A stretch of 64,000 nucleotides of DNA, taken from contig NZ_LJWX01000002.1 in assembly GCF_001431705.1 (NCBI RefSeq), positions 248,001 to 312,000 of the forward strand, written 5' to 3'. This DNA is from Ferrovum sp. JA12. Lineage in GTDB: Bacteria > Pseudomonadota > Gammaproteobacteria > Burkholderiales > Ferrovaceae. The notes under the pieces are model-generated. The model did not search any database, had not been told where the DNA came from, and worked only from the letters and a program-made list of their open reading frames with translations. Numbering within the stretch: position 1 is the stretch's first letter; each line of letters opens with the position of its first letter. A program made the translations under genes and the position numbers. Positions 3,821-26,273 of the stretch are shown one piece after another.

Positions 3821-3940
3821 AACTGATGACTTAAGGATGGAATGGTTATTTATTTGAGATAATGCTAACCTAAAAAAGGATGTTAGGAAAAACTTTTAAT
3901 ACATTGATTAAGTATATTGGTTTAAGGGAGAGATAAGTAG

Positions 3941-5254
3941 ATGGGGCAGGGGAATTGGCGTGAGGGGTTAACAAGGAAGCATTGGCAAATATTGCTAGGC
4001 AGCTTTTTAGGCTGGGTATTTGATGGTTACGAAGCCTTCGCTTTAATCGTAGTCATTCCATTTTTACTTAAATCATTATTACCTGCAGCACTTCTGCCCG
4101 CGGGACCCTTGTATGCTGGATCGGTGATTGGCATTACTCTACTGGGTTGGGGGATAGGTGGACTCGTGGGGGGTATCCTTGCCGATTACGTGGGACGCCG
4201 GCAAGTCATGCTCTGGTCGGTTTTTTTATATGCCTTATTCTCAGGGTTGACTGCTTTTGTTCATAACTTTTATCAACTGGATGCGCTACGTTTGTTAACG
4301 GGTCTTGCCATGGGCAGTGAATGGGCCACGGGTGTTTCACTGGTAGCAGAAACTTGGCCCAACCGCGCGAGGCCCATTGGTGCGGGATTTTTACAATCAG
4401 GTTTTGGTTGGGGAACACTCTTGGCGGCGGCGGTTTGGTATGTTCTATCCATTACTCAACCCTTGGCAGCGGAGAGCTGGCGGTTAATGTTTGTGTTGGG
4501 GGCTATTCCTGCTGTATTTGTTCTGTATTTAAGACGTAACCTCGATGAGTCGCAAAAATGGAAAGAGGCTATCTTGGCTAAACGTTGGGGGGCCACCGGA
4601 GGCGTTGCTAGTAGCCAAAACAAAAGACCCTTTACGCTTTTTCAGCTGTTTCGTGAAAAGGAAGCTTTACGGAGAACTATCATTACTTTTCTGCTGTCCT
4701 TAGCGACCACCACGGGTTGGTGGGCCGTATCCAGTTTATTACCGCGTTATACCGTGTTTTTAGCGAAGACGGCGGGCATGGGTCAACTTGCCCAATGGGG
4801 GGCCCTGTCGGGTTTGTTGTATACCCTTGGCGCTGTGGTAGCCTATCTCTTAGCAGGCTTTGTTATCGATGGCATAGGTCGCCGCCGTTTTTTATTTGGT
4901 ACTTATCTGGGTTGCTTGGTGATTACCTGGGTGAGCTATGGGGTAGTACGTAACCCCTACTATTTACTTTGGCTGACGCCTATAAATGGCTTTTTCACTT
5001 TAGGGTGCGCGTATGTGTGGATGGCCATTTATCCCCCTGAGTTGTTTGCCACCAGTGTTAGGGCCACCGCTGCCAGTGTAATTTTTAATGGTGCTCGAAT
5101 TATTGCTTGGGTATTCCCGGTGATTGCAGGCAGTCTCATACAAAGCTTTGGTAGCCTCTCTATAGCAGCCTTAACGATTAGTACGATTTATCTACTGGGT
5201 TTATTTTTACCTTGGTTGTTGCCGGAGACTACCCATCAAGAGTTGCCGGAATAA
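3941..5254 (+). CDS. MFS transporter, metabolite/carboxylate:H+ symporter type
   Basis: A 437-residue, 12-helix MFS protein. The loop 2-3 motif is visible as GGILADYVGRRQVM and its repeat in the second half as FVIDGIGRRRFLFG. A conserved Asp lies in the first helix (GWVFDGYEAF), as in the SHS/AAHS groups that import organic acids. The start ATG at 3941 lies downstream of a purine-rich AAGGGAGAG. It is divergent from the CaiB/HMGL operon with 120 bp between them, so shared control and uptake of that pathway's substrate are plausible. No substrate-defining residue was identified. Confidence 0.82.
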   Translation: MGQGNWREGLTRKHWQILLGSFLGWVFDGYEAFALIVVIPFLLKSLLPAALLPAGPLYAGSVIGITLLGWGIGGLVGGILADYVGRRQVMLWSVFLYALFSGLTAFVHNFYQLDALRLLTGLAMGSEWATGVSLVAETWPNRARPIGAGFLQSGFGWGTLLAAAVWYVLSITQPLAAESWRLMFVLGAIPAVFVLYLRRNLDESQKWKEAILAKRWGATGGVASSQNKRPFTLFQLFREKEALRRTIITFLLSLATTTGWWAVSSLLPRYTVFLAKTAGMGQLAQWGALSGLLYTLGAVVAYLLAGFVIDGIGRRRFLFGTYLGCLVITWVSYGVVRNPYYLLWLTPINGFFTLGCAYVWMAIYPPELFATSVRATAASVIFNGARIIAWVFPVIAGSLIQSFGSLSIAALTISTIYLLGLFLPWLLPETTHQELPE

Positions 5255-12804: not shown

Positions 12805-13221
12805 ATGACTCTTACTCAAACCAGAGCAATTCAAGGGGTAACGGTTGGTTTTATTGTTAATCTGTTAGGAGATTTACTGCTAGGCGTCAACGTTGAAGTG
12901 TACAAGGGTATTGCTACTTTTAATGTCCTGTGGATGCTCGATGTTTTTTTACTGCCTTTTATAGTGGGTTATGTTACCTCTCTCATCTATAAGAAAAGAG
13001 GAGGGCGATATGTGGCGTGCCTACCCCCTTTGCTGCTCAGGCCCTTGAGTTATTGGTATCTGCATTATGTGGCCCATCCTGTGGGCGACTTTTTTTATCA
13101 GCTTAACCTGTATTATTGGGGTCCCATGCTCATTCTCGTGGTGGAGTCTGCTAATTTTGGCGGCATTATTGGTGAAGTGAAAGCCGGTGTGTTCAGTAAA
13201 AAGCGAGAGAGCGCTTCATAA
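12805..13221 (+). CDS. Hypothetical multi-pass membrane protein
   Basis: 138 residues with about three to four hydrophobic segments (VTVGFIVNLLGDLLLG, LWMLDVFLLPFIVGYVTSLI, a central proline-rich segment, and YYWGPMLILVVES). AAGGA lies 6 bp before the ATG. I do not recognise a family. It sits in an unbroken plus-strand run from the light/redox cluster to the propeller gene, which begins just after it. Confidence 0.65.
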   Translation: MTLTQTRAIQGVTVGFIVNLLGDLLLGVNVEVYKGIATFNVLWMLDVFLLPFIVGYVTSLIYKKRGGRYVACLPPLLLRPLSYWYLHYVAHPVGDFFYQLNLYYWGPMLILVVESANFGGIIGEVKAGVFSKKRESAS

Positions 13222-13291
13222 AACTCTTGCTGTCAGTACAATTCTGCGTTACTTTGGGACGCAAATGAACTCTCTAGTTGAGCCCACCACT

Positions 13292-14269
13292 ATGTTTCTC
13301 TCTCGTTTTCTGACTTTTTTGATCCTGTTGAGCTGTGCAGGGTGTGTGATTGCTGAGGAGATTCCTCTGCATGAATTAATGGATGTTCCTCTGGCTGGTC
13401 ACGCCACCCGTTTGGATTATGCGAGTCTAGATCCTGCTAAGCATCTTCTGTTTATCGCGCACCTTGGGGATAGTAACATCATGGTGTTTGATACAGAAAA
13501 AAATAAGGTCATTCAAGTTATTCCTCACATAGAACATGTTCATGGCGTGTTGGTAGTCCCTGAGTTAAACCGAGTCTACGCTTCAGCCACTACCACGAAC
13601 GAAGTGGTTGTCATTGATGAAACGAGCTTACGGGAGATAGCTCGAATTCCTGGGGGTATTTATCCAGATGGCATGGCCTACGCCTCTCGAGAACATAAAT
13701 TGTATGTCTCCGACGAACATGGAAAAACTGAAACGGTTATTAATACGGTGAATAATCAGAGAGTCGCTACCATTCCCTTAGGGAGTGAGGTGGGAAATTC
13801 GCAATACGATCCTGTCTCCCATCACGTTTTTGTGAATGCACAAACCACTAACGAGCTCCTTGAAATTGATCCCTTACCAGATCGCGTGATCAACAGGTAT
13901 CCCTTAACCCATGAGTGCATAGGTGCCCATGGTTTATTAATTGACGCTACAGATCGCTTGGCCTTTATTGCCTGTGAAGGGACTCATATTTTAGTGGAGT
14001 TTAATCTGTTATCAAGGAGTGTGATGCAGAGCTACATCATTGTGAATCAACCAGATGTGTTGGCCTTTGATGAAGGGCAACGACTACTTTATATCGCCGG
14101 AGAGCAGGGCAGTGTGTCCCTATTCAGGGTGGGTCATGGGGTCAATAAAATATGGCAAGGTTTGATCGGTAACAATGCCCATGTGGTGGTTACAGATCCA
14201 CAGACCGGTCGGGTGTATTTTCCATTAATGAATGTGAACGGATCTCCAGTATTAAGGATTATGCATTAG
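13292..14269 (+). CDS. Secreted beta-propeller protein, YncE-like
   Basis: About 325 residues with an N-terminal signal sequence (MFLSRFLTFLILLSCAGCVIAEE; cleavage either by signal peptidase I after AE or as a lipoprotein at the Cys). Repeated blade-like units follow: LFIAHLGDSNIMVFDTEKNK, VYASATTTNEVVVIDETS, LYVSDEHGKTETVINTVNN, VFVNAQTTNELLEIDP. This pattern is typical of YncE/cytochrome-D1-like seven-bladed propellers in the periplasm. ATG at 13265 is an alternative start with a GGGA upstream. Ligand unknown. Confidence 0.75.
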   Translation: MFLSRFLTFLILLSCAGCVIAEEIPLHELMDVPLAGHATRLDYASLDPAKHLLFIAHLGDSNIMVFDTEKNKVIQVIPHIEHVHGVLVVPELNRVYASATTTNEVVVIDETSLREIARIPGGIYPDGMAYASREHKLYVSDEHGKTETVINTVNNQRVATIPLGSEVGNSQYDPVSHHVFVNAQTTNELLEIDPLPDRVINRYPLTHECIGAHGLLIDATDRLAFIACEGTHILVEFNLLSRSVMQSYIIVNQPDVLAFDEGQRLLYIAGEQGSVSLFRVGHGVNKIWQGLIGNNAHVVVTDPQTGRVYFPLMNVNGSPVLRIMH

Positions 14270-14588
14270 AGGGATGACTCGCTTTAGTAGGGATCATTTT
14301 TTGATAACCACTTTTAGCGGGTTGAATGACTGTTTTAAGCGCACTATTTTTTATTAATTTATCCACGGATCTCTCTAATTCAGGATGTTTTTCCTTCAGA
14401 GCCTGAGGGAGTTGCGCCTGACTCAATTCGGGAGTCAGAAAAAAAACCCCTAACAGTAATTGGAGGAGGTAGTGACTGTTTTTTTGCTTACACCCCGCAG
14501 TTGGCGATAGCGATAACGGGATCTTCCCTCGGGTCTGTGAGGGTAAAGGAGCATAATAAGAAGATAGGTTGGTGTTAGCATTGGCCAT
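14259..14588 (-). CDS. Hypothetical protein with one hydrophobic segment
   Basis: 109 residues, no family recognised. GGAGTG lies 5 bases before ATG 14588, which favours a real gene. A hydrophobic stretch (YLLQLLLGVFFLTPELSQAQ) near residues 40-59 ends in an AQA-like site. The mature part would be a short charged, helical domain (LPQALKEKHPELERSVDKL). The first 38 residues before that helix are unusual, so an internal start is possible. Its 3' end overlaps the convergent propeller gene by 11 bp. Confidence 0.5.
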   Translation of the reverse strand: MANANTNLSSYYAPLPSQTRGKIPLSLSPTAGCKQKNSHYLLQLLLGVFFLTPELSQAQLPQALKEKHPELERSVDKLIKNSALKTVIQPAKSGYQKMIPTKASHPSNA

Positions 14589-14851
14589 TTTTCACTCCCA
14601 AATGAGTTATTGACGTTTTAATATAAGCAAGAGTCGGGCCAAATCTTTAATTACATCATTAACCTAGGTTTTATGGGATTCTTAAGGCGATCTGAGCTTT
14701 TTTTAGGTCGTCAATAACAATATTCTTACGGATGGTTGAGGAACATGCACTGACTGAGCGCATCATTGTTGTGCTTTGATTGATTTTGGTGTAGCTAAAC
14801 AACAGGGCAACGGACTCGTAAATAAAGTATGGACTTGACTCGCTTTAGTAG
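14275..14851. repeat. Pair of perfect 16-bp direct repeats (TGACTCGCTTTAGTAG)
   Basis: The same 16 bases occur at 14275-14290, inside the 3' end of the hypothetical gene, and at 14836-14851. The second copy lies 38 bp before the IS3 remnant and near the left edge of the first accessory region. The 545 bp between them hold most of the hypothetical gene and about 245 bp of non-coding DNA. The copies could mark an old duplication or insertion boundary. Confidence 0.7.
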
Positions 14852-14889
14852 ATAGAAAGTCATAAGTAAAATTGAGATGAGAGAAACCC
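14589..14889. other. Non-coding stretch before the first accessory region
   Basis: About 300 bases between the hypothetical gene and the IS3 remnant. It is AT-rich, with no reading frame I can support, no tRNA and no convincing terminator. Its only notable content is the second copy of the 16-bp repeat at 14836-14851. Confidence 0.6.
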
Positions 14890-14994
14890 ATGAGTAGTAC
14901 AAGATACACAGATGAATTTAAAGCGGAAGATAGTAAACAAGTCATAGAGCGTGGGGTAGGTGTCCTTATGGTGGCCAATGGTTTTGTTCTCTAG
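14890..14994 (+). pseudogene. IS3-family OrfA fragment
   Basis: A 34-codon frame beginning MSSTRYTDEFKAEDSKQVIERG matches the helix-turn-helix start of IS3-type OrfA transposases, in which TDEFKxEAVKQVxERG is typical. It degenerates to a stop after GFVL. The remaining bases up to the IS256 end at 15134 carry no recognisable OrfB. It is a dead remnant at the edge of the accessory region. Confidence 0.7.
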
Positions 14995-15133
14995 GATAAA
15001 AAGCCTGTAGGCCAGGCTTATGTGTAGTCTGCAGCAAATGATGATGTGCTTGCGCTGAACAACAAAATCCATCCCATGAAGGAAAGGCACTTTGCCAGAG
15101 TCTTCGAGTACAGTTCGCATTTATTGACAGCAT

Positions 15134-16469
15134 GAGGGTGTCCTGGATTTTGTGTAAACGGAATTCATTAATGTTGCGGCATCCGGTCGTCAAACTGGAT
15201 AGTAAACCGGTTTAGCGCCGCCTTCCAATCCCGAATGGGCATCGTCCATTTTTTGCTGATGTTTTGGATCGCCAGGTAGAACAGTTTCAGCAGCGCCTCA
15301 TCAGTCGGAAACGAGCCACGATTCTTGGTGATTTTCCTCAGGCTCATGTTCAGCGATTCAATCGCATTAGTGGTGTAAATCACCCGGCGAATCTCCGGCG
15401 GATAGTCAAAGAACGGCGTGATGCGTATCCAGTTGCGCCGCCAGCTTTGGCCAATCGCCGGATAGTCTTTGTCCCACTTTTCCTCAAACGCCGTCAACTG
15501 CCGCTCCGCCTCATCCGCCGTGGCCGCGGTGTAAATGGCGCGCAGATCAGCGGCCACCTCTTTGCGCAGTTTCCAACCGACGTAATTCAGGCTGTAGCGC
15601 ACCATATGTACGATACAAAGCTGAACGGCGGTCTTGGGAAACACGGTTTCAATGGCTTCCGGGAAGCCCTTCAGCCCATCCACGCAGGCGATGAAGATGT
15701 CTTGCACACCACGATTCTTCAATTCCGTGACCACCTGTAGCCAGAACTTGGCGCCTTCCGTTTGGGCGATCCAGATACCCAGTAATTCCTTCTCTCCATC
15801 GAGCTTGATGCCCAGCGCCAGATAGACTGCTTTAACGCGCACTGCGCCGTTATCCCGCACTTTTACATGAATACAATCCATATAAACAATTGGATACAGC
15901 GCATCCAGCGGCCGGGATTGCCACGCTTTGACTTCTTCGATGACGGCATCGGTCACCGCTGAAATCAGACTGGGCGACACCTCTGTGCCATACATTTCTT
16001 CCAGATGACCCTGAATCTCACGCACCGTCATGCCACGACCGTACAAGGACAAAATCTTGTCGTCAAAGTCTGTCCAGCGGGTTTGATGTTTGGGGATCAG
16101 TTGCGGCTCAAAGCTGCTTTGCCGGTCGCGCGGAATTTCGATAGGCAATTCGCCAAACTCACCTTTGAGCGTCTTGCGGCTGGTGCCATTACGGGCGTTG
16201 CCAGCGGTATTGGCGATGGGCTCATGCTTGTCATGCCCAAGGTGGGCTGCCATCTCGGCTTGCAGCGCACGTTCCACGACAGCCTTGGTGAGCTGTTTAA
16301 GCAAGCCATGCTCGCCCAGTATATCTTCGGGTTTCTGGTAGCCGGCCAGCAGTTGGTCAATCAAATCAGGCGAGGGGGATTTCTTTGTTACGGTCATGTT
16401 CACTTCCTTTTCAAAGTTAGGCAGATTTTCCTGCCAAATGACCGTTTACACAAAATTTCTTACACCCTC
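15134..16469 (-). mobile_element. IS256-family insertion sequence
   Basis: A 1336-bp element with matching ends. The left end begins GAGGGTGT and, after five variable bases, has ATTTTGTGTAAACGG. The right end read on the reverse strand shows the same two blocks with a different five-base spacer. One transposase gene fills it. The bases just outside the two ends do not match over 8-9 bp, so no target duplication is seen. This suggests an adjacent deletion or recombination after insertion. On its right it abuts the truncated drmA. Confidence 0.9.
15168..16403 (-). CDS. IS256-family (Mutator-type) transposase
   Basis: A 411-residue intact DDE transposase. Typical IS256 features are ALQAEMAAHLGHDKHE near residue 50, YPIVYMDCIHVKVRDNG (first catalytic Asp), CVDGLKGFPEAIETVFP (second Asp), and RRVIYTTNAIESLNMSLRK (region of the catalytic Glu). 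Full length for the family with no frameshift, so probably active. It is the only gene of the 1336-bp element. Confidence 0.95.
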   Translation of the reverse strand: MNMTVTKKSPSPDLIDQLLAGYQKPEDILGEHGLLKQLTKAVVERALQAEMAAHLGHDKHEPIANTAGNARNGTSRKTLKGEFGELPIEIPRDRQSSFEPQLIPKHQTRWTDFDDKILSLYGRGMTVREIQGHLEEMYGTEVSPSLISAVTDAVIEEVKAWQSRPLDALYPIVYMDCIHVKVRDNGAVRVKAVYLALGIKLDGEKELLGIWIAQTEGAKFWLQVVTELKNRGVQDIFIACVDGLKGFPEAIETVFPKTAVQLCIVHMVRYSLNYVGWKLRKEVAADLRAIYTAATADEAERQLTAFEEKWDKDYPAIGQSWRRNWIRITPFFDYPPEIRRVIYTTNAIESLNMSLRKITKNRGSFPTDEALLKLFYLAIQNISKKWTMPIRDWKAALNRFTIQFDDRMPQH

Positions 16470-17000
16470 CTCTATGGACAGAGCAAACCCAGAGATCGTA
16501 GTCATTTTGAACGATTCAGACCCTACCACCAGCAATTATACGCACAGGTTGAGCCAACCAGTGTCACTCCATTCAGTGCGCCGGCGGTAGAACGCTCCCT
16601 TCATGGCATTATTGTCTCAGCTGTGCGACAGTTTGGAATATTGAATGCTGAGTCAAGCAGTCCGGATCCCTTCCCGCTAGGCGAAAGTTCCGTGTTGCGA
16701 AATTTGGTTGACGAGATGATAGCGCAGCGCGTTGGAGTCGTAGCTCCGGAAGAATATGATTCAGTAATGGAACAACTGCAACTCCGCCTTGACCAGTGGC
16801 AAAAATGGCAACCGAGCGAGTATGGTGGTTTTGGAGCCGCACCTGAAGATCCTCCTTTGCTGCACCCTGCAGGTAGTGCCGTGCCGCCAAGCTGGGATGG
16901 TCATAGCTGGCCGACCATGTCGTCGCTGCGAAATGTTGATGCTTCCTGTGAAGCAGAGATAACCCGATTTTTCAATCAACTTCAGGATGATCAAATATGA
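16470..17000 (+). pseudogene. drmA: 3' fragment of a DISARM drmA helicase gene
   Basis: The frame runs without a start straight out of the IS256 end. It begins LYGQSKPRDRSHFERFRPYH and continues LYAQVEPTSVTPFSAPAVER, the C-terminal helicase region of DrmA-type SF2 proteins from DISARM. About 176 residues remain; the Walker motifs and most of the helicase are lost. The stop overlaps the drmB start (ATGA), showing the original operon order drmA-drmB. It cannot make a helicase. Confidence 0.8.
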
Positions 17001-19138
17001 GCCGCCCAGTAAGAAGGTCGCAAGCAATTTCGCCTTTTGGTATTGGGGCATTGGTGGACTTTCCAGGTCCTGTGTCGCTCATTCACGCTGGCTTAGATGC
17101 TTGGCCATTCAAGGAGGGTGAGCCGGATCACCGGGAGTTTATCATCGATGATGAGAAACGCCTTTCCAGTAGGTTGGACGTAGACTACTTTGTACAGCCA
17201 GCAGACTTTCGGCAGCCCACACGAGGGCAGGATGCAACACAGTCCAACCTTAATTTAAAGTTGCCATTTCTCAGATTTCCTCTTTGGCATGTTTGTCCTC
17301 GATGTGGGCGAATGCATCTCGCACGATATCAAGACAGCACACCTCCGATCTGTAGAGGGCCAATCGGCTCTGGAGGTGGAATTGGGTCTGAACATTCACC
17401 AAGAAAAACTGTTCAAGTTCGCTTTGTAGGCGCATGCAAAAAGGGGCATCTGCAGGATTTTCCATGGTTGGAATGGTTGTTCAAGCAACCAGATCCACTG
17501 TGGGAACCGGAGGGTAATCTGCGCTGGCTCCGTATGAGAAGTACCGGCAGTGCTTCGCTTACTGGGGTGGAAGTGGCAGCAGAGGAAAGGTTGCCGAATG
17601 GAGGAATAAAGGTTATTGAGAAACGTACACTTGCTGGTGCATTTCAGGGGGATGAATCAGGTGAATCACAGCGAGCATTTACAAAAATTGGCGTGCTGTG
17701 TGGGGGACACAATCCTGCATTGGGAATTGGCAAGAACGGCCCGAATCCGTTACTAGGTTGTGGCCAAGAAATATACCCTCTGCTTCGTGGTGCCTCAAAT
17801 CTTTACTTCCCTCAGGTTGTCAGCTCGATTTATATCCCAAACATTGATGACAAAAATCTTGATCAGGAAATTTTGGATATCCTTGATGACCATTTGCTGA
17901 AGTCTATTCTGTTACTCAGCGCACAAGATGCGGACAATGGCATGATTTCAGCGAAGGCGGCTCGGAACGCTCTGAAGAAATATTACCCAGAGTCAAGCGT
18001 GGATGCGGAAGTTTTGGCAGAGGCTGCTAACAGACACATCTTGAAAGATATTCTGCTGGAAAACAGGACGGTGCAACAATACTTATCACAAAAAATAAAG
18101 GTGTCGACTGACAAGCAGCTCACGCTTGATATGGTGAGCTCGGCAATTAAAAACCATTATGGGGATTGGGGAATTGACCCATTGGTGTTGTTGGGTCCGT
18201 TGTCTGATTGGTTTGAAGGGCAGGGTGTGGATGCTGATCAAGGAACGGCGGGGCTTCAACAGGATATTTTAGTTGAGTCTAACTATAGAATGGAAGAATA
18301 CCGAGTCTTTTGTCGAGATATTCAGGAGGGCTACCCAAAGGCCAATCTGTTGATACGAAGCTCCGAGATAGCTAGTTATGGTGATCTAGTCCGATCCTCG
18401 TTTGAGCGCATATCTTTGTTGCACAAGTTAAGAGAGACGCGGGCATTTGTGGGGTTTTCTAGAATTTATCCTGGTGACGACCTCACGCAGGAAGAGCGAT
18501 GGCATCTGATAGCGCTTGAAAAGAAGAAATGGCTCCCAGCTGTTGTTGTAAGAGGAGAGGGCATCTTCCTGAAGTTCAGGGAAGATCGACTTGGCGCTTG
18601 GATTGAAAAATTCGGGGCTCTTCATGAAGGTAGATTTGCATTGATTAACCACCAGATGGGTGAGTTACGGGAGCGAAGACATCAGCAGCCAAAACTGATT
18701 TCGCCGAAACATGTTCTGATCCACACATTCGCGCACCTGCTGATTAACGAATTAGTATATGAATGTGGCTATGGCTCAGCTTCTCTTAGAGAGCGGATAT
18801 ATTCTGTGGATGGAGAGTATCCCATGTCTGGTGTATTGATCTATACGGCTGCGGGGGACTCGGAGGGTTCAATGGGTGGCCTTGTTCAAATGGGGCAACC
18901 AGGCTATCTTGAAGCTGTTGTAGCTAGGGCACTTGAGAAAGCGCGTTGGTGTTCCAGCGATCCGGTCTGTATTGAAAGCAAAGGGCAAGGCCCAGATAAC
19001 TGTAATCTGGCAGCATGTCATTCCTGTGCTCTGCTGCCGGAAACTTCATGCGAAGAGCATAATCGATTACTCGATCGTGGAGTGGTAATTGGCACCATCG
19101 AAAGTCCATCCAGTGGGTTCTTTTTGGGGGATGAGTAA
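16997..19138 (+). CDS. drmB: DrmB-like DUF1998 protein of DISARM
   Basis: A full-length 713-residue protein. It starts with the DrmB hallmark RRSQAISPFGIGALVDFPG, which precedes the zinc-binding CPRCGRMH and the CKKGHLQDFPW segment. The C-terminal DUF1998 region holds HTFAHLLINELVYECGY and a Cys-rich end (CNLAACHSCALLPETSCEEH). In DISARM, DrmB forms a DNA-binding complex with the helicase DrmA. Here drmA survives only as a 3' fragment, and no drmC, drmE or drmD lies next to it. The protein is probably an orphan. Confidence 0.85.
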   Translation: MSRPVRRSQAISPFGIGALVDFPGPVSLIHAGLDAWPFKEGEPDHREFIIDDEKRLSSRLDVDYFVQPADFRQPTRGQDATQSNLNLKLPFLRFPLWHVCPRCGRMHLARYQDSTPPICRGPIGSGGGIGSEHSPRKTVQVRFVGACKKGHLQDFPWLEWLFKQPDPLWEPEGNLRWLRMRSTGSASLTGVEVAAEERLPNGGIKVIEKRTLAGAFQGDESGESQRAFTKIGVLCGGHNPALGIGKNGPNPLLGCGQEIYPLLRGASNLYFPQVVSSIYIPNIDDKNLDQEILDILDDHLLKSILLLSAQDADNGMISAKAARNALKKYYPESSVDAEVLAEAANRHILKDILLENRTVQQYLSQKIKVSTDKQLTLDMVSSAIKNHYGDWGIDPLVLLGPLSDWFEGQGVDADQGTAGLQQDILVESNYRMEEYRVFCRDIQEGYPKANLLIRSSEIASYGDLVRSSFERISLLHKLRETRAFVGFSRIYPGDDLTQEERWHLIALEKKKWLPAVVVRGEGIFLKFREDRLGAWIEKFGALHEGRFALINHQMGELRERRHQQPKLISPKHVLIHTFAHLLINELVYECGYGSASLRERIYSVDGEYPMSGVLIYTAAGDSEGSMGGLVQMGQPGYLEAVVARALEKARWCSSDPVCIESKGQGPDNCNLAACHSCALLPETSCEEHNRLLDRGVVIGTIESPSSGFFLGDE

Positions 19139-19151
19139 ATGAAATCAGGTT

Positions 19152-19310
19152 GTTAAATTGCATTCTGAATTGCCCCATTTTTTGCACTTTAGTCTGACCC
19201 ACCAAATTTGATAATTGGTCATGTGGTACGACGGGTTGCATTTCTTGAGGAGGGTCAATATTTAATGCAAACATTCAGACAAAGTGGCTCAATCCAGAAT
19301 GCAATTTAAC
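19152..19310. repeat. MITE-like repeat, copy 1 (159 bp)
   Basis: A 159-bp unit with terminal inverted repeats: GTTAAATTGCATTCTG at the left and its near-perfect complement at the right (20 of 21 bases match). Inside are TGACCCACC-type motifs like those of IS21-family ends. No coding capacity. A copy of identical length lies at 21611. This copy sits 13 bp after drmB and directly cuts a GHKL-ATPase gene. Confidence 0.8.
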
Positions 19311-19447: not shown

Positions 19448-21001
19448 TCAATTTCCGAGTAACTGGAAGACTATTTTTGCAATTTTATTTGCAAGCAAAG
19501 GTGGTACGGCATTGCCAACTTGGTGAAATTGTTGTGTTCGGTTTCCCTGGAAAAAATAGTTGTCCGGGAAGGTCTGTAGACGTGCAGCTTCACGCACTGT
19601 CAGGCTACGACACTGTGCAGGGTCTGGATGGATAAAGTAATGCCCATCTTTCGAAATGTGACTGGTTACGGTTGTGGATGGTCGTCCTTTGAGTTGCACC
19701 CTGAAACGGTCAGAAAATTTCCCGCTTTCCCAGTTGTTATGGTTTGGTCGTAGTCCTTCCAGATCAAATTGTTGATGCCCCTTCGGGGAAAGTCCATAGG
19801 CTTCGGCATATGCAGCTGCATAAATATAACGTCTTAAGTCACTCGACATATGTCCTCTGGACTCATGATTCAGTAAAACTTTCAGATTGTTATCACGGTA
19901 CCACTCATCTAGTTTTGAGTTGAGTATTGCCGGTATATTTTCACTATTCAACCTTAATGCTCCAAAATCAAGATCAGAGTCTATTGAATGTTTCAGTCTA
20001 TCCAGAACTGCTGTTAATTCATGCAATTCGCTTCTCTTTGAGGCTTCTGCATGAAGTTCTTGCAAATGCTGTTTAACTGTTGACGTCCATTTTTCGGCAT
20101 TGTCACCCCCTTTGCTCAAACGGCTGCGTAAGCGGGGGAGTGTTCCTATCACATCCTGAACAGTAAATTCTGAAACTTTATCTAAAAGCTTGGGATTGAC
20201 ATTTATATCTTCCCGGATGCCAATAAGGATGACTCTATGTCGGGCCTGCGGAATGCCAAATTCTTCAGTGCGAATGATGAAATCATGTGCGTTGATATCT
20301 TGTGGATCCATACCTTTTTCAAAGTAAGTAGGAACAGCCAGAGAGTGAATTTTGTAGCTTCGGCCTGGTGACTTTCCGAGCGCTAAGTTAGGGTCAGAAA
20401 GGTCTCGCAATATGGTATTAAAGATTTTCTGGCCATCAATTGTAGATGACAGAATACCTTTGACATTCTCCATCACAAAAACGGCAGGCTGATATTCCTG
20501 AATAATTCGAAGATACTCGCGGTAAAGATAATGTCGATGATCCTGTTCTGGACAATAATCGGTCTTTCCTCTGTTCCTTGAACGTCCTACCAGTGAATAA
20601 GCCTGACAGGGTGGTCCGCCAATCAATATCCATGGCTTTGAAGTGTTAATTTTTTCCTTATCTAGTATCGTGTCGAGTTCAAGATTACCTGTGGTTGTCC
20701 CCAAAGTGATACGACGTGCCTCTTTATTTGCTTCTTCCCATGCAGGCAAGGATTTGTCATCATATGGCGTATCCGATTCACCATTACAGAACCGGTAGTA
20801 ACTTTCCAGTGACGAACTGTCTTGCGTTTTCAAAATTCGGAAGAAAGATCGCAGTTTCAGAGTTTGATGCGCTGACGTCTCCATTTCCGCTGAAACTAAT
20901 ATTTTGAATGCGTTGCCATTATCAAGTGCTGAAAAGCCCTCTCCCAGACCGCCGGGGCCAGCGAAAAGATCAACTATGGGGATAGGTTCGTCTTGGGGCA
21001 T
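19448..21001 (-). CDS. DNA (cytosine-5) methyltransferase
   Basis: A 517-residue enzyme with the m5C-methylase motifs in order: motif I VDLFAGPGGLGEGF at residue 9, motif IV WILIGGPPCQAYSLVGRSR with the catalytic Cys, motif VI FVMENVKGILS, motif VIII QARHRVILIG, and motif X region RTQQFHQVGNAVPPLLA. The target-recognition region between VIII and IX is long. It is divergent from vsr with 46 bp between. Its recognition site cannot be read from sequence. It may be a methylase of a Dcm/Vsr/GHKL cassette or a DrmMII-like DISARM methylase; orientation and Vsr favour the former. Confidence 0.92.
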   Translation of the reverse strand: MPQDEPIPIVDLFAGPGGLGEGFSALDNGNAFKILVSAEMETSAHQTLKLRSFFRILKTQDSSSLESYYRFCNGESDTPYDDKSLPAWEEANKEARRITLGTTTGNLELDTILDKEKINTSKPWILIGGPPCQAYSLVGRSRNRGKTDYCPEQDHRHYLYREYLRIIQEYQPAVFVMENVKGILSSTIDGQKIFNTILRDLSDPNLALGKSPGRSYKIHSLAVPTYFEKGMDPQDINAHDFIIRTEEFGIPQARHRVILIGIREDINVNPKLLDKVSEFTVQDVIGTLPRLRSRLSKGGDNAEKWTSTVKQHLQELHAEASKRSELHELTAVLDRLKHSIDSDLDFGALRLNSENIPAILNSKLDEWYRDNNLKVLLNHESRGHMSSDLRRYIYAAAYAEAYGLSPKGHQQFDLEGLRPNHNNWESGKFSDRFRVQLKGRPSTTVTSHISKDGHYFIHPDPAQCRSLTVREAARLQTFPDNYFFQGNRTQQFHQVGNAVPPLLANKIAKIVFQLLGN

Positions 21002-21047
21002 ATGCTGCTATATTAACTTTAATTAGAGTGTGGCCAGGATACCAGGA

Positions 21048-21497
21048 ATGACCGATATAGTCGATAGTAAAACACGATCTCGCATGATGTCTGGAATTAA
21101 AAGTAAAGATACCGCGCCGGAAATGGTAGTGCGACGATTCCTTCATAGGGCAGGTTTACGTTATCGGCTGCATGATTATACCCTGCCTGGGTGTCCTGAT
21201 CTTGTTTTACCGCGCTATCGCACAGTGATATTCGTTAATGGCTGTTTCTGGCACCGACATCCGGGTTGTAAACTTGCCTATTCACCAAAGAATAATTTTG
21301 AAATATGGCAGAAAAAATTTGATCGGAATGTTTTACGTGATCAACGTAATATTGAAACGCTTATAAAGTCAGGGTGGCGGGTTATAGTCGTATGGGAATG
21401 CGGATTACGTAAAAATCCTTATAACGTTCTGATAGCACTGGTTGATGAAGTCAGGTGTAAGCACACGCAGTCTATGGTTCAAATATCCTCTTCATGA
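21048..21497 (+). CDS. vsr: Very-short-patch repair endonuclease Vsr
   Basis: About 149 residues. It starts MTDIVDSKTRSRMMSGIKSK, the usual Vsr N-terminus, which is why ATG 21048 is preferred over the in-frame GTG at 21030. The catalytic core LPGCPDLVLPRYRTVIFVNG and the zinc/active-site CFWHRHPGCK are present, and RNIETLIKSGWRVIVVWECG ends the fold. Vsr nicks next to T:G mismatches made by deamination of 5-methylcytosine, so it is a natural partner of the adjacent methylase. The gene looks intact. Confidence 0.92.
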   Translation: MTDIVDSKTRSRMMSGIKSKDTAPEMVVRRFLHRAGLRYRLHDYTLPGCPDLVLPRYRTVIFVNGCFWHRHPGCKLAYSPKNNFEIWQKKFDRNVLRDQRNIETLIKSGWRVIVVWECGLRKNPYNVLIALVDEVRCKHTQSMVQISSS

Positions 21498-21580: not shown

Positions 21581-21610
21581 TGGAATGTTTCCGAGAAAAT
21601 ATACGATGAT

Positions 21611-21769
21611 GTTAACTTGCACCACAGATTGACCCATCTTTTGTACTATAGCTTGACCCACCAAATTTGATAGCTGCTCATGTGGCACGACGGGTTGAAT
21701 TTTTTGAGGCGGGTCAATATTTGATGAAAATGTTCAGACAAAGTGGCTCAATTCGGAATGCAATTTAAC
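21611..21769. repeat. MITE-like repeat, copy 2 (159 bp)
   Basis: Same length and orientation as the copy at 19152. Similarity is clear across the unit, strongest at the right end (TTCAGACAAAGTGGCTCAAT shared exactly). The left inverted repeat has drifted (GTTAACTTGCACC), the right one is intact. The two copies enclose the GHKL fragment, methylase and vsr, so this 2.3-kb block could have moved as a unit or been trimmed by recombination between copies. Confidence 0.78.
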
Positions 21770-21824
21770 GTTTTGACTATCTAGATTGGCTCTAATTTTA
21801 AAAAATGGTAGTATAGAAGGCTGT

Positions 21825-21899
21825 GCCGCCATAGTTTAATGGATAAAACAAGGGTTTCCTAAACCTTAGCTCCAGGTTCGACTCCTGGTGGCGGCACCA
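21825..21899 (+). tRNA. tRNA-Arg (anticodon CCU), CCA encoded
   Basis: A complete cloverleaf: acceptor GCCGCCA pairs with TGGCGGC, D-stem GTTT/AAAC, anticodon stem AGGGT/ACCTT with loop TTCCTAA (anticodon CCT, reading AGG), T-stem CCAGG/CCTGG with TTCGACT loop, discriminator A and encoded CCA. It follows the second MITE by 55 bp and lies within the accessory region, next to a broken tRNA-Arg with the same anticodon. Confidence 0.9.
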
Positions 21900-22091
21900 A
21901 ACCGCACCTCATTCTTCTTTTCAAAAATACCATACAATCACCCACTAATATCTTGCTATATAAGTTTTTAAAAAAATGGGACAAATTTGGGACAATCCTG
22001 TACTAGATTAGGGTGGATTTGAAGGGATGTGAGTGGACTTAACTGATTGATTTTTATTGAAAAACGTATATTTCTGTATGCCCCTTATCCA
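21900..22091. other. Stretch between the two tRNA-Arg sequences
   Basis: About 190 AT-rich bases without a supported gene. It contains a doubled GGGACAA motif (TGGGACAAATTTGGGACAA), of a kind often seen beside tRNA-integrated elements, but no integrase gene remains. Confidence 0.45.
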
Positions 22092-22131
22092 CTTAGGAGG
22101 GGGTCGCTCTATCCACTGAGCTACCGGGGCC
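22092..22131 (-). pseudogene. 5' half of a disrupted tRNA-Arg (CCU) gene
   Basis: On the reverse strand from 22131 the sequence reads as positions 1-39 of a tRNA: acceptor GGCCCCG, D-arm GCTCAGTGGATAGAGC, then GACCCCCTCCTAAG with a CCT anticodon. After the anticodon loop the homology stops; the 3' anticodon stem, T-arm and acceptor 3' strand are absent. This is the usual scar of integration into an anticodon loop. The intact tRNA-Arg(CCU) 190 bp away probably replaces its function. Confidence 0.75.
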
Positions 22132-23335: not shown

Positions 23336-25156
23336 ATGCCCTTTGTTACTTTGCGTCATCTTAGTCTCGCTTATGGTCACCATGCCCTTTTAGATGGAGC
23401 CAACCTCGTTATAGAAGAAAGACAACGTGTGGGCCTGATTGGCCGCAATGGAGGAGGGAAAAGCTCGCTATTAAAAGTCATTTTGGGCCAAGTTAACGCA
23501 GATAGTGGGGAGCGCTGGATACAGCCTGGTCTTAAAATGGGTTATGTGGCCCAGGAAGAGCATTTTGATGAGACACAAACTGTTGAAGAAAAATTAGTAG
23601 AAGTTAGTCTACTGCAGCATGAATGGACGCCAAGCCATCTCATAGCGAGCATGATGTCAACCATTGGTTTTAAGGGTCCAGAACTCATCAGTTCACTGTC
23701 AGGGGGTTGGCGTAAAAAACTAGGACTTGCCTGCGCCCTAATTAACGAGCCACAACTACTTATCTTGGATGAGCCCACTAATCATTTAGATATTGATGCT
23801 ATTGCTTGGCTTGAAAACTTACTGAAAACATTTAAAGGCAGCGTTCTTTTTGTCACCCATGATCGCGCCTTTTTAGATAATGTGGCCACCGATATCATCG
23901 AGCTTGATCGAGGAGTGCTCTCTCATTACGGTCACTCTTTTACCACCTATCAACTCAGAAAACAGGAAATGTTGGCGGTGGAACAAACCCATCAAGCTAA
24001 ATTTGATAAGATTTTGGCTCAAGAAGAAGTGTGGATTCGTAAGGGAGTGGAAGCAAGGCGTACAAGAAATGAGGGGCGAGTGAGGCGTCTTGAAGCGCTA
24101 AGAATTGAGCGCTCCAGGCGACGTGACAAATTAGGTTCTGTGAGATTAAACCTGCAGACAGGTGATCGCTCAGGAGAGTTAGTGGTTGAGCTTGATCAGG
24201 TGTCCATCGCCTATCAAGATCGAGTCTTGGTGCGTGACTTTTCTACACGCATTCAACGTGGCGATAAGATTGGCATTATCGGGCCCAATGGTTCAGGCAA
24301 AACAACTCTTCTTAAAACATTGTTAGGAGAATTAAAACCTGATCAAGGGCAGGTTAAGTTGGGCACAAAAATTCAAGTGGCCTATTTTGATCAATTACGT
24401 GAGCAGCTAGATCCTGAGGCCACTTTAATTGATACCATTAGCCCTGGTTCTGACTTTATTGAAATGAACGGTCAGCGTAAACATCGGATCAGTTATTTGG
24501 AGGATTTTTTATTTCCACCGGAACGCACGCGAGCTAAGGTGAAATCTCTCTCTGGAGGGGAACGCAATCGCTTGTTATTAGCAAGATTATTTGCGAAACC
24601 TGCTAATGTATTGGTTTTAGATGAGCCTACTAATGACCTTGATATGGATACTCTCGAGGTGCTCGAGGAATTATTAAGTGACTATACCGGGACCTTGTTC
24701 TTAGTGTCTCACGATCGCGCCTTTTTAGATAATGTGGTGACGCAAGTGATGGTCTTAGACGGTTTTGGTCAAGTCACTGAAAACGCTGGCGGCTATTCTG
24801 ATTGGGCGGATTATGTAAAACACCAGTGGAGTACAAAAGGTGACACGATTCCCTCATCTCGTAATGAGGACAAAAAAGAGTTGGTGACAGAGGGTAAGGA
24901 GAGAGCTAAAACCCGCCCTGAAAAAATGACCCATCGAGAACAACAAGAGTTAGAATCATTACCTGCAAAAATAGATCTGCTTGAACAAGAGCTACTGGCC
25001 ATCAATGAGGAGCTTTCCGATCCCTCTCTTTATACCACCCAAGCGGAAAAAGTAATAAAACTCCAAAGTCGGTTAGCGCAGTTGGAAGGGGAGATGGAAA
25101 ACCTACTAAAACGTTGGGAGTTTTTAGAACAAAAACTGCTTCGTCTAAAGAGTTAA
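23336..25156 (+). CDS. uup: ABC-F ATPase, Uup type
   Basis: A 606-residue protein with two ABC domains and no membrane segments. First domain: Walker A GLIGRNGGGKSS, signature LSGGWRKKLGLA, Walker B LLILDEPTNHLD. Second domain: GPNGSGKTT, LSGGERNRLLLA, LVLDEPTNDLD. A C-terminal coiled coil follows after about residue 535 (EQQELESLPAKIDLLEQEL), typical of Uup. ABC-F proteins act on the ribosome; Uup also affects DNA stability and precise transposon excision. The gene is complete and closes the conserved block before the second accessory region. Confidence 0.9.
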   Translation: MPFVTLRHLSLAYGHHALLDGANLVIEERQRVGLIGRNGGGKSSLLKVILGQVNADSGERWIQPGLKMGYVAQEEHFDETQTVEEKLVEVSLLQHEWTPSHLIASMMSTIGFKGPELISSLSGGWRKKLGLACALINEPQLLILDEPTNHLDIDAIAWLENLLKTFKGSVLFVTHDRAFLDNVATDIIELDRGVLSHYGHSFTTYQLRKQEMLAVEQTHQAKFDKILAQEEVWIRKGVEARRTRNEGRVRRLEALRIERSRRRDKLGSVRLNLQTGDRSGELVVELDQVSIAYQDRVLVRDFSTRIQRGDKIGIIGPNGSGKTTLLKTLLGELKPDQGQVKLGTKIQVAYFDQLREQLDPEATLIDTISPGSDFIEMNGQRKHRISYLEDFLFPPERTRAKVKSLSGGERNRLLLARLFAKPANVLVLDEPTNDLDMDTLEVLEELLSDYTGTLFLVSHDRAFLDNVVTQVMVLDGFGQVTENAGGYSDWADYVKHQWSTKGDTIPSSRNEDKKELVTEGKERAKTRPEKMTHREQQELESLPAKIDLLEQELLAINEELSDPSLYTTQAEKVIKLQSRLAQLEGEMENLLKRWEFLEQKLLRLKS

Positions 25157-25176
25157 GTGCTCTAGTTCAGACTTGA

Positions 25177-26273
25177 TCTGACATAACTACTTACAAATGG
25201 TGGGGTTACCCGGTTTGATAGAGGTTCGAATCTTTATCAAACAACGCGCATAAGCGCAAAGGAGTAATCCCATGAATAGTGTTCAACAAAACCTTATAAA
25301 ACACAATCTTGGTTTGCTGAATTCAGCTGCTGAAGTGGGTAATGTGTCTCGTGCTTGTCAAGTAATAGGCTTTTCAAGAGATACCTTTTATCACTATTAG
25401 GCAGCTAGAGATGATGGTGGTATTGAGGTCTTGATCGATGCTAAGCATAAAAAGCTTGATTTAAAAAAACATGTTGAAGAAAAAACCGAGCGTGCTGTAT
25501 CGGCGTTTGCTATAGAATTTCCAGCTTTGGCCAATTACGCGCCTCCAATGAACTGCGTCAACGAGGAATATTTATCTCTCCATCAGGAGTTAGATCAGTG
25601 TGGCTACGGCATAATTTGGCTTCGTTCAAAAAACGGCTTGGCGCATTAGAAAAACATGTAGCGCAAACTGGAGAGGTATTAACAGAAGCCCAAGTTCAAG
25701 TCCTGAAAAGAAAGTAAGATGATGATATAACTATCGGTGAGATTGAGACTGCCCACCCTAGTTATCTCGGTAGCCAAGATACGTTTTACGTAGGTAATAT
25801 CACAGGAGCGGGAAGGATATACCAACAGACCTTTGTTGACACTTACTCCAAATGGGACAGCACTAAACTTTACACAACAAAAACTCCCATCACGGCAGCA
25901 GATCTACTCAATGACAGAGTATTGTCCTTCTTTGCTGAACAGGGTATGGGAATTATTCGTTTGTTAACAGATCGAAGTACAGAGTATTGCAGTAAAGCTG
26001 AAACCCAAGATTATGAGTTGTGTCTAGCCTTAAACGACATCGAGCATACAAAAACCAAAGTGTATCATCCACAAACGAATGACATTTGTAGGCGGTTTCA
26101 TAAAGCCATCTTATAAGAGTTTTATCAAGTCACCTTCAGAGGTAAGATTTACAGAGGTATTGAAGAGCTTCCATCTGATTTAGATAATTGGCTGGATTAT
26201 TACAATAACAATAGAATACATTAAGGAAAAATGTGTTCCTGACAGTTACTACATAAATCGGGTAACTGTCAGA
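25177..26273 (+). mobile_element. Decayed IS481-family insertion sequence
   Basis: The left end begins TCTGACATAACTAC and the right end on the reverse strand begins TCTGACAGTTACCC, giving a shared TCTGACA start. A dead transposase gene lies between. The right end falls exactly where the macro-domain gene is cut. An extra inverted repeat (TGACAGTTAC/GTAACTGTCA, 26240-26269) lies inside the right end. The element appears old. Confidence 0.65.
25272..26223 (+). pseudogene. IS481-type transposase pseudogene
   Basis: ATG 25272 starts MNSVQQNLIKHNLGLLNSAA, followed by GNVSRACQVIGFSRDTFYHY, the helix-turn-helix of IS481 transposases, and then an in-frame stop. Later fragments in several frames recover IETAHPSYLGSQDTFYV, RIYQQTFVDTYSKW, LLTDRSTEYC and a KVYHPQTNDIC block, the integrase core. 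At least three stops or frameshifts make it inactive. Confidence 0.85.

Follow-up and report, generated by a model that had tools for sequence, protein, structure and literature searches.

Why should a bacterial genome keep half of a tRNA-Arg(CCU) gene beside a complete tRNA-Arg(CCU) of a different type? The question is raised by a 64,000-nucleotide stretch of Ferrovum sp. JA12 (G000:C2:248001-312000, where G000 denotes the source genome, 2.0 Mb in three contigs), which was analysed as a whole and is referred to below as the window. A preliminary description of the window, made from its letters alone, had suggested a mobile element that ruins the tRNA gene it targets and supplies a substitute of its own. 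Comparison with related genomes makes it very probable that a defence island integrated site-specifically into tRNA-Arg(CCU), without rebuilding the target gene and carrying its own substitute. The initial proposal is supported by a second island, in genome G188, which breaks its host's tRNA-Arg(CCU) at the same base and has the missing 3' half of that gene 32.3 kb away.

The broken gene and a second island at the same base

The fragment on the minus strand of the window comprises exactly 39 nt (22130..22092), in agreement with the first 39 or so positions reported initially, and reads GCCCCGGTAGCTCAGTGGATAGAGCGACCCCCTCCTAAG. It is followed directly by TGGATAAGGGGCATAC, at a place where relatives have GGGGTAGGTC..., and the unrelated sequence beyond it on the same strand is TGGATAAGGGGCATACAG. 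The preliminary description had placed the cut in the anticodon loop, which is nearly exact; the actual break comes one nucleotide beyond it, so that the fragment still includes the first base of the 3' stem strand. The 3' half had been noted as missing from the window, and a search allowing up to three mismatches extended this absence to the whole 2.0-Mb genome. The core of the attachment site, CCCCCTCCTAAG, is present in G000 at the right end only.

The uninterrupted locus was found, as had been proposed for checking, in all three genus mates examined (G001, G002 and G003), where the tRNA-Arg(CCU) gene is complete, follows the Fur-box-like region and cupredoxin gene that also precede the G000 fragment, and continues as ...CCCCCTCCTAAGGGGTAGGTC[AG]CACGTTCGATTCGTGTTC... 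Because the gene is complete at this locus in these relatives, the fragment is not a chance resemblance. The two sides of the native locus are ~8.9 kb apart in the window versus <1 kb in the relatives.

The second island came from an order-wide search of 399 genomes with the foreign tRNA and the following 190 bp as query (all whole-genome searches covered sampled species, with one genome per species), which gave a single strong match outside G000, to G188, a genome of another family. G188 resembles Methylophilaceae and may belong there; in that family, tRNA-Arg(cct) and tRNA-Ser(gga) are described as flanking a variable defence island (PMC10872708). The two genomes have an end module in common, consisting of dcm, vsr, the foreign tRNA and the end sequence, and their alignment spans a repeat resembling a miniature inverted-repeat transposable element (MITE), the tRNA and the sequence that follows it, reaching as far as the fragment of the native gene. 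Within that 5' half the identity breaks off, each fragment having the sequence of its own host: in G188 it is that genome's own tRNA-Arg(CCU), broken at the identical base, with CCCCCTCCTAAG followed by TGGACAC. The host genes beyond the junction also differ, namely a cupredoxin gene in G000 and a peroxiredoxin-type gene in G188, and since both flanks and fragments differ, the two integrations were independent. In G310, a genus mate of G188, an intact tRNA-Arg(CCU) adjoins the same peroxiredoxin-type gene.

Both ends of the G188 island are preserved. Its native 3' half lies at ~1011.4 kb, 32.3 kb off at the other island end, where ...ATCGTTTCCCCCTCCTAAG meets GGGAGGGTCACACGTTCGATTCGTGTCGAGGGCACCA, and the two ends share the 13-bp direct repeat TCCCCCTCCTAAG, the core direct repeats at both ends that are typical of canonical tRNA-targeted islands, with a core-to-core distance of 32,298 bp. 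Joining the flanks in silico restored a standard tRNA-Arg(CCU), while joining the island ends gave a predicted circular attachment site (attP, containing ...GTTTCCCCCTCCTAAGTGGACAC...) in which ARAGORN found no tRNA and which holds no tRNA fragment beyond the core. Paired GTCCCA repeats in the same orientation occur at both G188 ends, TTGTCCCAA(A)TTTGTCCCA, and are putative arm-type integrase sites, for which such an arrangement is expected; the corresponding pair in the window is listed in Table 1.

The carried tRNA-Arg(CCU)

The different but complete tRNA-Arg(CCU) that had been reported 190 bp inward on the plus strand was recovered by both ARAGORN and Rfam (Table 1). It folds as a full cloverleaf, is located 190 bp inside the island end and points towards the broken gene in G000 and G188 alike; both islands carry a complete tRNA-Arg(CCU). 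Its identity is 69-82% to CCU tRNAs of other lineages and 63% to the native genus type, and it was not found in the other 31 family genomes. Searches of plasmid, phage and viral-contig collections with the tRNA and the end sequence returned tRNA-level similarity at most, or nothing. Within the family, G018 (L071, G018:C193) has nothing that matches the pattern of the native tRNA-Arg(CCU), and it has a CCU tRNA of another type, possibly another tRNA replacement.

A count of AGG-reading tRNAs had been suggested at the outset, with a second intact copy of the broken gene as an observation that would speak against replacement. Among the 36 tRNAs of G000 there is no such copy, and only one has a CCU anticodon, the foreign tRNA at 21825-21899; a UCU tRNA is also present. 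Ala-TGC and Ile-GAT tRNAs, usually found in rRNA operons, are missing from this list; an rRNA operon is therefore probably absent from the assembly, and it is unlikely that a second CCU tRNA gene is hidden there. Between G000 and G188 the foreign tRNA is identical at 74 of 75 positions (98.7%), versus 82.7% over the next 190 bp, and at the flank rate at most one change in 75 positions has P ~1e-5. That this is the sole CCU tRNA in G000, and conserved beyond a drifting flank, strongly suggests that the foreign tRNA has taken over the decoding of AGG in the host. The substitute is presumably also charged. Its anticodon arm reads AGGGT-TTCCTAA-ACCTT, and the stem GGGTTTCCTAAACC shares only TCCTAA with the core; since the anticodon stem mismatches the core outside TCCTAA, the integrase that uses the core would be expected to recognise the substitute poorly, and the substitute would not itself be a site of integration.

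Recombinase and competing explanations

An element that uses the same site in the canonical way is found in G047, a genome of yet another family. The same tRNA is broken there at the identical base (CCCCCTCCTAAG followed by CAAGATG), and the element, which resembles an integrative and conjugative element (ICE), has the same GTCCCAAATTTGTCCCA arm repeats 126 bp inside its end. About 120 kb further on, similar arms and an integrase gene (Pfam Phage_integrase, 4.2e-20, beside the attachment site) stand ahead of a complete tRNA-Arg(CCU), and a VirB11-like gene is nearby. This element carries a 5' half and rebuilds the native tRNA-Arg(CCU). As judged by these comparisons, one attachment site is served by two solutions, in which an element carries half a gene and rebuilds, or carries a whole foreign tRNA. 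Since no integrase was found in the islands, and the ICE-like element has the same target, core and arms, the likeliest reading is that the islands would be moved in trans by G047-type integrases.

The integration that we favour would have proceeded by tyrosine-recombinase-type recombination at the anticodon arm of the host tRNA-Arg(CCU), with (T)CCCCCTCCTAAG as the core and a recombinase acting in trans. The sequences show that the attP of the island has the core alone in common with its target, so that integration splits the tRNA gene and does not rebuild it, and that the island brings, 190 bp inside its end, the complete tRNA-Arg(CCU) of another lineage, which would then read AGG for the host. 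In G000 the left end of the island and the native 3' half were lost later. With both missing, precise excision cannot rebuild the native gene of G000, and the xenologous tRNA replacement there is presumably permanent. The proposal of the preliminary description is thereby kept in outline with some changes: the island runs leftwards from 22092 and includes a DISARM (defence island system associated with restriction-modification) remnant, neither island was found to have an integrase, and the loss of the left end and 3' half in G000 is placed after the integration.

Several observations weigh against this account. The exact island type is known from two genomes only (G000 and G188), and was not found in ~30 other family members, 17 members of the G188 family, or the sampled order and class. 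The count that leaves a sole CCU tRNA was taken in G000 alone, and the tRNA-Arg(UCU) of that genome could decode AGG through wobble pairing, which may make the substitute CCU tRNA dispensable. Transcription of the foreign tRNA is assumed from a promoter picked out by eye, and a consensus promoter scan did not flag the TTGGCT/TAGTAT pair upstream of it. Pfam searches, and tblastn with three integrases as queries, detected no integrase in the 32.3-kb G188 island, and a whole-genome search of G000 with the G047 integrase gave no match.

The broken gene could alternatively have arisen by an unrelated deletion that truncated it later, with the foreign tRNA a mere passenger on a nearby island, and the insertion sequence (IS)-degraded left end of G000 and the vanished 3' half look as they would after a deletion. 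This is very unlikely, and largely refuted, given that the same end module lies at the identical base of another host's tRNA-Arg(CCU) and that the G188 3' half is intact at the other island end, with a 13-bp direct repeat. Alternatively, the attP could have held a piece of the tRNA that restored the native gene on integration, with the restored portion lost since then. Such a history would follow the usual rule for islands that target tRNA genes (PMC4383910) and the example of the G047 element at this very site; against it, the G188 island has kept both its ends and the gene is restored at neither of them, its attP has no tRNA half beyond the core, and we found no island relative whose attP bears a 5' or 3' half. 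We consider such a history extremely unlikely. The least credible explanation, to which we give next to no weight, is that the interruption is a self-splicing intron or that a split tRNA is processed in trans. Group I introns do occur in tRNA-Arg(CCU) anticodon loops, and G205 provides a likely example, but no Rfam intron match was obtained near the break in the window or in the G188 island, the G188 insert is 32 kb of genes, and G000 is without the 3' half. The G205 insert itself (G205:C1 near 1433093; L192 1525-1758) is ~250 nt long, lies in the anticodon loop of a tRNA-Arg(CCU) that ARAGORN missed and weakly matches a group I intron family (23.5 bits, below gathering); it is likely a group I intron.

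One further alternative competes with the trans-acting integrase only, and leaves integration and replacement as they are. An integrase could formerly have stood in cis at the left end and been lost from both islands, which would make them degenerate ICEs or prophages. The left end of G000 is clearly lost and both islands contain IS elements, yet in G188, with both attachment ends intact, no integrase or remnant of one was found in 32.3 kb, and the searches made there detected no phage structural genes: eight ORFs of the G188 island compared with PHROGs gave one weak tape-measure match only (E 3e-4). These searches give no sign of a temperate-phage carrier with an integrase in cis, and integrases homologous to the query are present elsewhere in the G188 genome. 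We regard a lost cis integrase as a serious possibility, somewhat short of an even chance. The broader proposal, in which defence islands without an integrase form a class with a common, conserved end module (substitute tRNA and attachment end), swap their systems (DISARM, Mza), are moved in trans by ICE integrases specific for the same site and carry a tRNA that its altered anticodon stem makes integrase-proof, with loss of the far end locking in permanent host dependence, is offered tentatively and is rather doubtful as a whole.

Island cargo, known systems and biological meaning

The G188 island carries MzaB-E-like genes beside vsr and the methyltransferase gene. Farther to the left it encodes AAA ATPases along with one tubulin/FtsZ-like, one DUF2779 and one WYL protein, and contains an IS3-type element. 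In G000 the class 2 DISARM system is not intact, with drmB and drmMII present and drmA reduced to a remnant. Relatives of the methyltransferase in 80 public genome contigs showed no linkage to tRNA-Arg(CCU), so the tRNA belongs with the attachment end and not with the DISARM or defence genes.

The MITE-like repeat, ~165 bp long, stands at the borders of defence modules in both islands. G000 has two copies, each of them within the island; G188 has 11 matches (those of its island at L176 ~3838-3998 and ~14087-14260, and L172 ~4403-4566 and ~14764-14938), and the genus mates of G000 have none. Because the repeat is shared by the G000 island and G188 and is lacking in these genus mates, its distribution suggests that the island reached the G000 lineage from a G188-like donor. 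The repeats may help defence modules to swap by recombination. They were also considered as cassette-recombination sites, a candidate that was rejected because their terminal inverted repeats and scattered G188 copies fit a MITE better. In the left part of the G000 island, a decayed IS3-type orfA remnant (MSSTRYTDEFKAE...) at 14860-15010 lies left of the IS256-family element, and together they mark the eroded part of the island. Between the native ORF and the island, positions 13187-14588 hold a beta-propeller-like gene and a small minus-strand ORF that are absent from the corresponding position in the three genus mates. Elsewhere in the window, 25099-25270 on the minus strand gives a strong Rfam match to psRNA2 (120 bits).

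Table 1 Features of the island and its surroundings in the window, with the G047 element for comparison.
Feature	Position	Strand	Evidence or remark
Native ORF, in genus mates the 3' neighbour of tRNA-Arg(CCU); last native gene still recognisable to the left of the island	12805..13221	+	relatives' sequence
IS256-family (mutator) transposase, left part of island	15168..16403	-	Pfam Transposase_mut 1.8e-123
drmA C-terminal remnant, severed by IS256-family element	16460..17000	+	PADLOC DrmA 1.6e-23, profile 664-823 of 837
drmB (DISARM)	16997..19138	+	PADLOC DrmB 1.2e-67
MITE-like repeat, copy 1	19151..19310	+	G188-island homology begins at its right edge, 19312
C5 cytosine DNA methyltransferase (DrmMII / dcm-like)	19448..21001	-	97.3% DNA identity to G188 copy
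vsr-like mismatch endonuclease gene	21030..21497	+	97.6% DNA identity to G188 copy
Copy 2 of the MITE-like repeat; terminal inverted repeats imperfect; IS21-like TTGACCCA motifs	21610..21769	+	repeat search
Candidate promoter of foreign tRNA, TTGGCT - 17 nt - TAGTAT (-35/-10)	21786..21814	+	by eye; near-identical in G188
Foreign complete tRNA-Arg(CCU), encoded CCA	21825..21899	+	ARAGORN; Rfam RF00005 66.4 bits
Paired repeat TTGTCCCAAATTTGTCCCA, putative arm-type integrase sites	21977..21995	-	G047 element right end compared
Attachment core CCCCCTCCTAAG, crossover region (13 bp TCCCCCTCCTAAG in G188)	22092..22103	-	direct repeat, both G188 island ends
Native tRNA-Arg(CCU) 5' half, broken host site (attB), right attachment junction	22092..22130	-	relatives' intact locus, G188 break point
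G047 ICE-like element	G047:C2, ~800 to 120,900 (ends in L200, L201)		~120 kb

The principle that an element breaks its target tRNA and brings its own has already been published for actinobacteriophages. In the tRNA-dependent lysogeny of Fionnbharth, LeBron, Gaia and Mollymur (Guerrero-Bustamante and Hatfull 2024, PMC10865867), the phage integrase recombines at a short core within a host tRNA gene, which is left unrestored, and lysogens need a phage-encoded tRNA of matching isotype to survive; the authors ask how common this is beyond actinobacteriophages and mention one Lactobacillus prophage. The islands share with these phages attP/attB sites of the tyrosine-recombinase type with a short core (8-11 bp in the phages, 13 bp in the islands), arm-type sites around it, an unrestored target tRNA and a carried cognate tRNA. 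The phages are temperate, have their integrase in cis, target tRNA-Lys, tRNA-Ile2 and tRNA-Leu genes and were tested by experiment, whereas the islands are phage-free, lack an integrase and occur in Burkholderiales-like proteobacteria at tRNA-Arg(CCU); their tRNA lies 190 bp inside the end, and in one host the 3' half is permanently lost.

Canonical islands carry in attP a fragment that restores the target gene, as set out for Islander, a search that rejects islands without an integrase and fragments oriented opposite to the tRNA gene (PMC4383910). With such islands, those described here have in common the tRNA attB, the crossover at the anticodon loop, arm-like repeats and a displaced tRNA fragment; they differ in that the target tRNA gene was found not to be restored. 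From the G047 element, which has the attB, break point and GTCCCAAATTTGTCCCA arms in common with them, they differ because it has an integrase and a 5' half and so rebuilds the native tRNA-Arg(CCU). Cis-mobilizable elements (CIMEs), or hitcher elements, are islands flanked by attachment sites and without an integrase. The G188 island is such an island (32,298 bp; Pfam and tblastn), having both attachment ends and no integrase that we could find, but unlike CIMEs (for a review see PMC11389934), it and the G000 island carry a whole substitute for the target tRNA gene, and their mobilisation in trans is our reading of the comparisons above. Tycheposons, which in the cited sections of PMC10872708 are tRNA-bordered cargo elements described in Methylophilaceae, likewise tie their cargo to a tRNA gene at the border, but carry their own tyrosine recombinase, and those sections do not describe replacement of the target by a foreign tRNA.

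These comparisons suggest that breaking the target tRNA and bringing a replacement is not confined to actinobacterial phages and extends to mobile defence islands of proteobacteria. The end state in the genome is a core tRNA gene replaced at its own locus by a foreign one, which is a possible reason for some of the lone tRNA genes on islands, and such islands form a class that searches by fragment pairing, Islander among them, would overlook because of their own filters. It also becomes testable whether hosts come to depend on their defence island.
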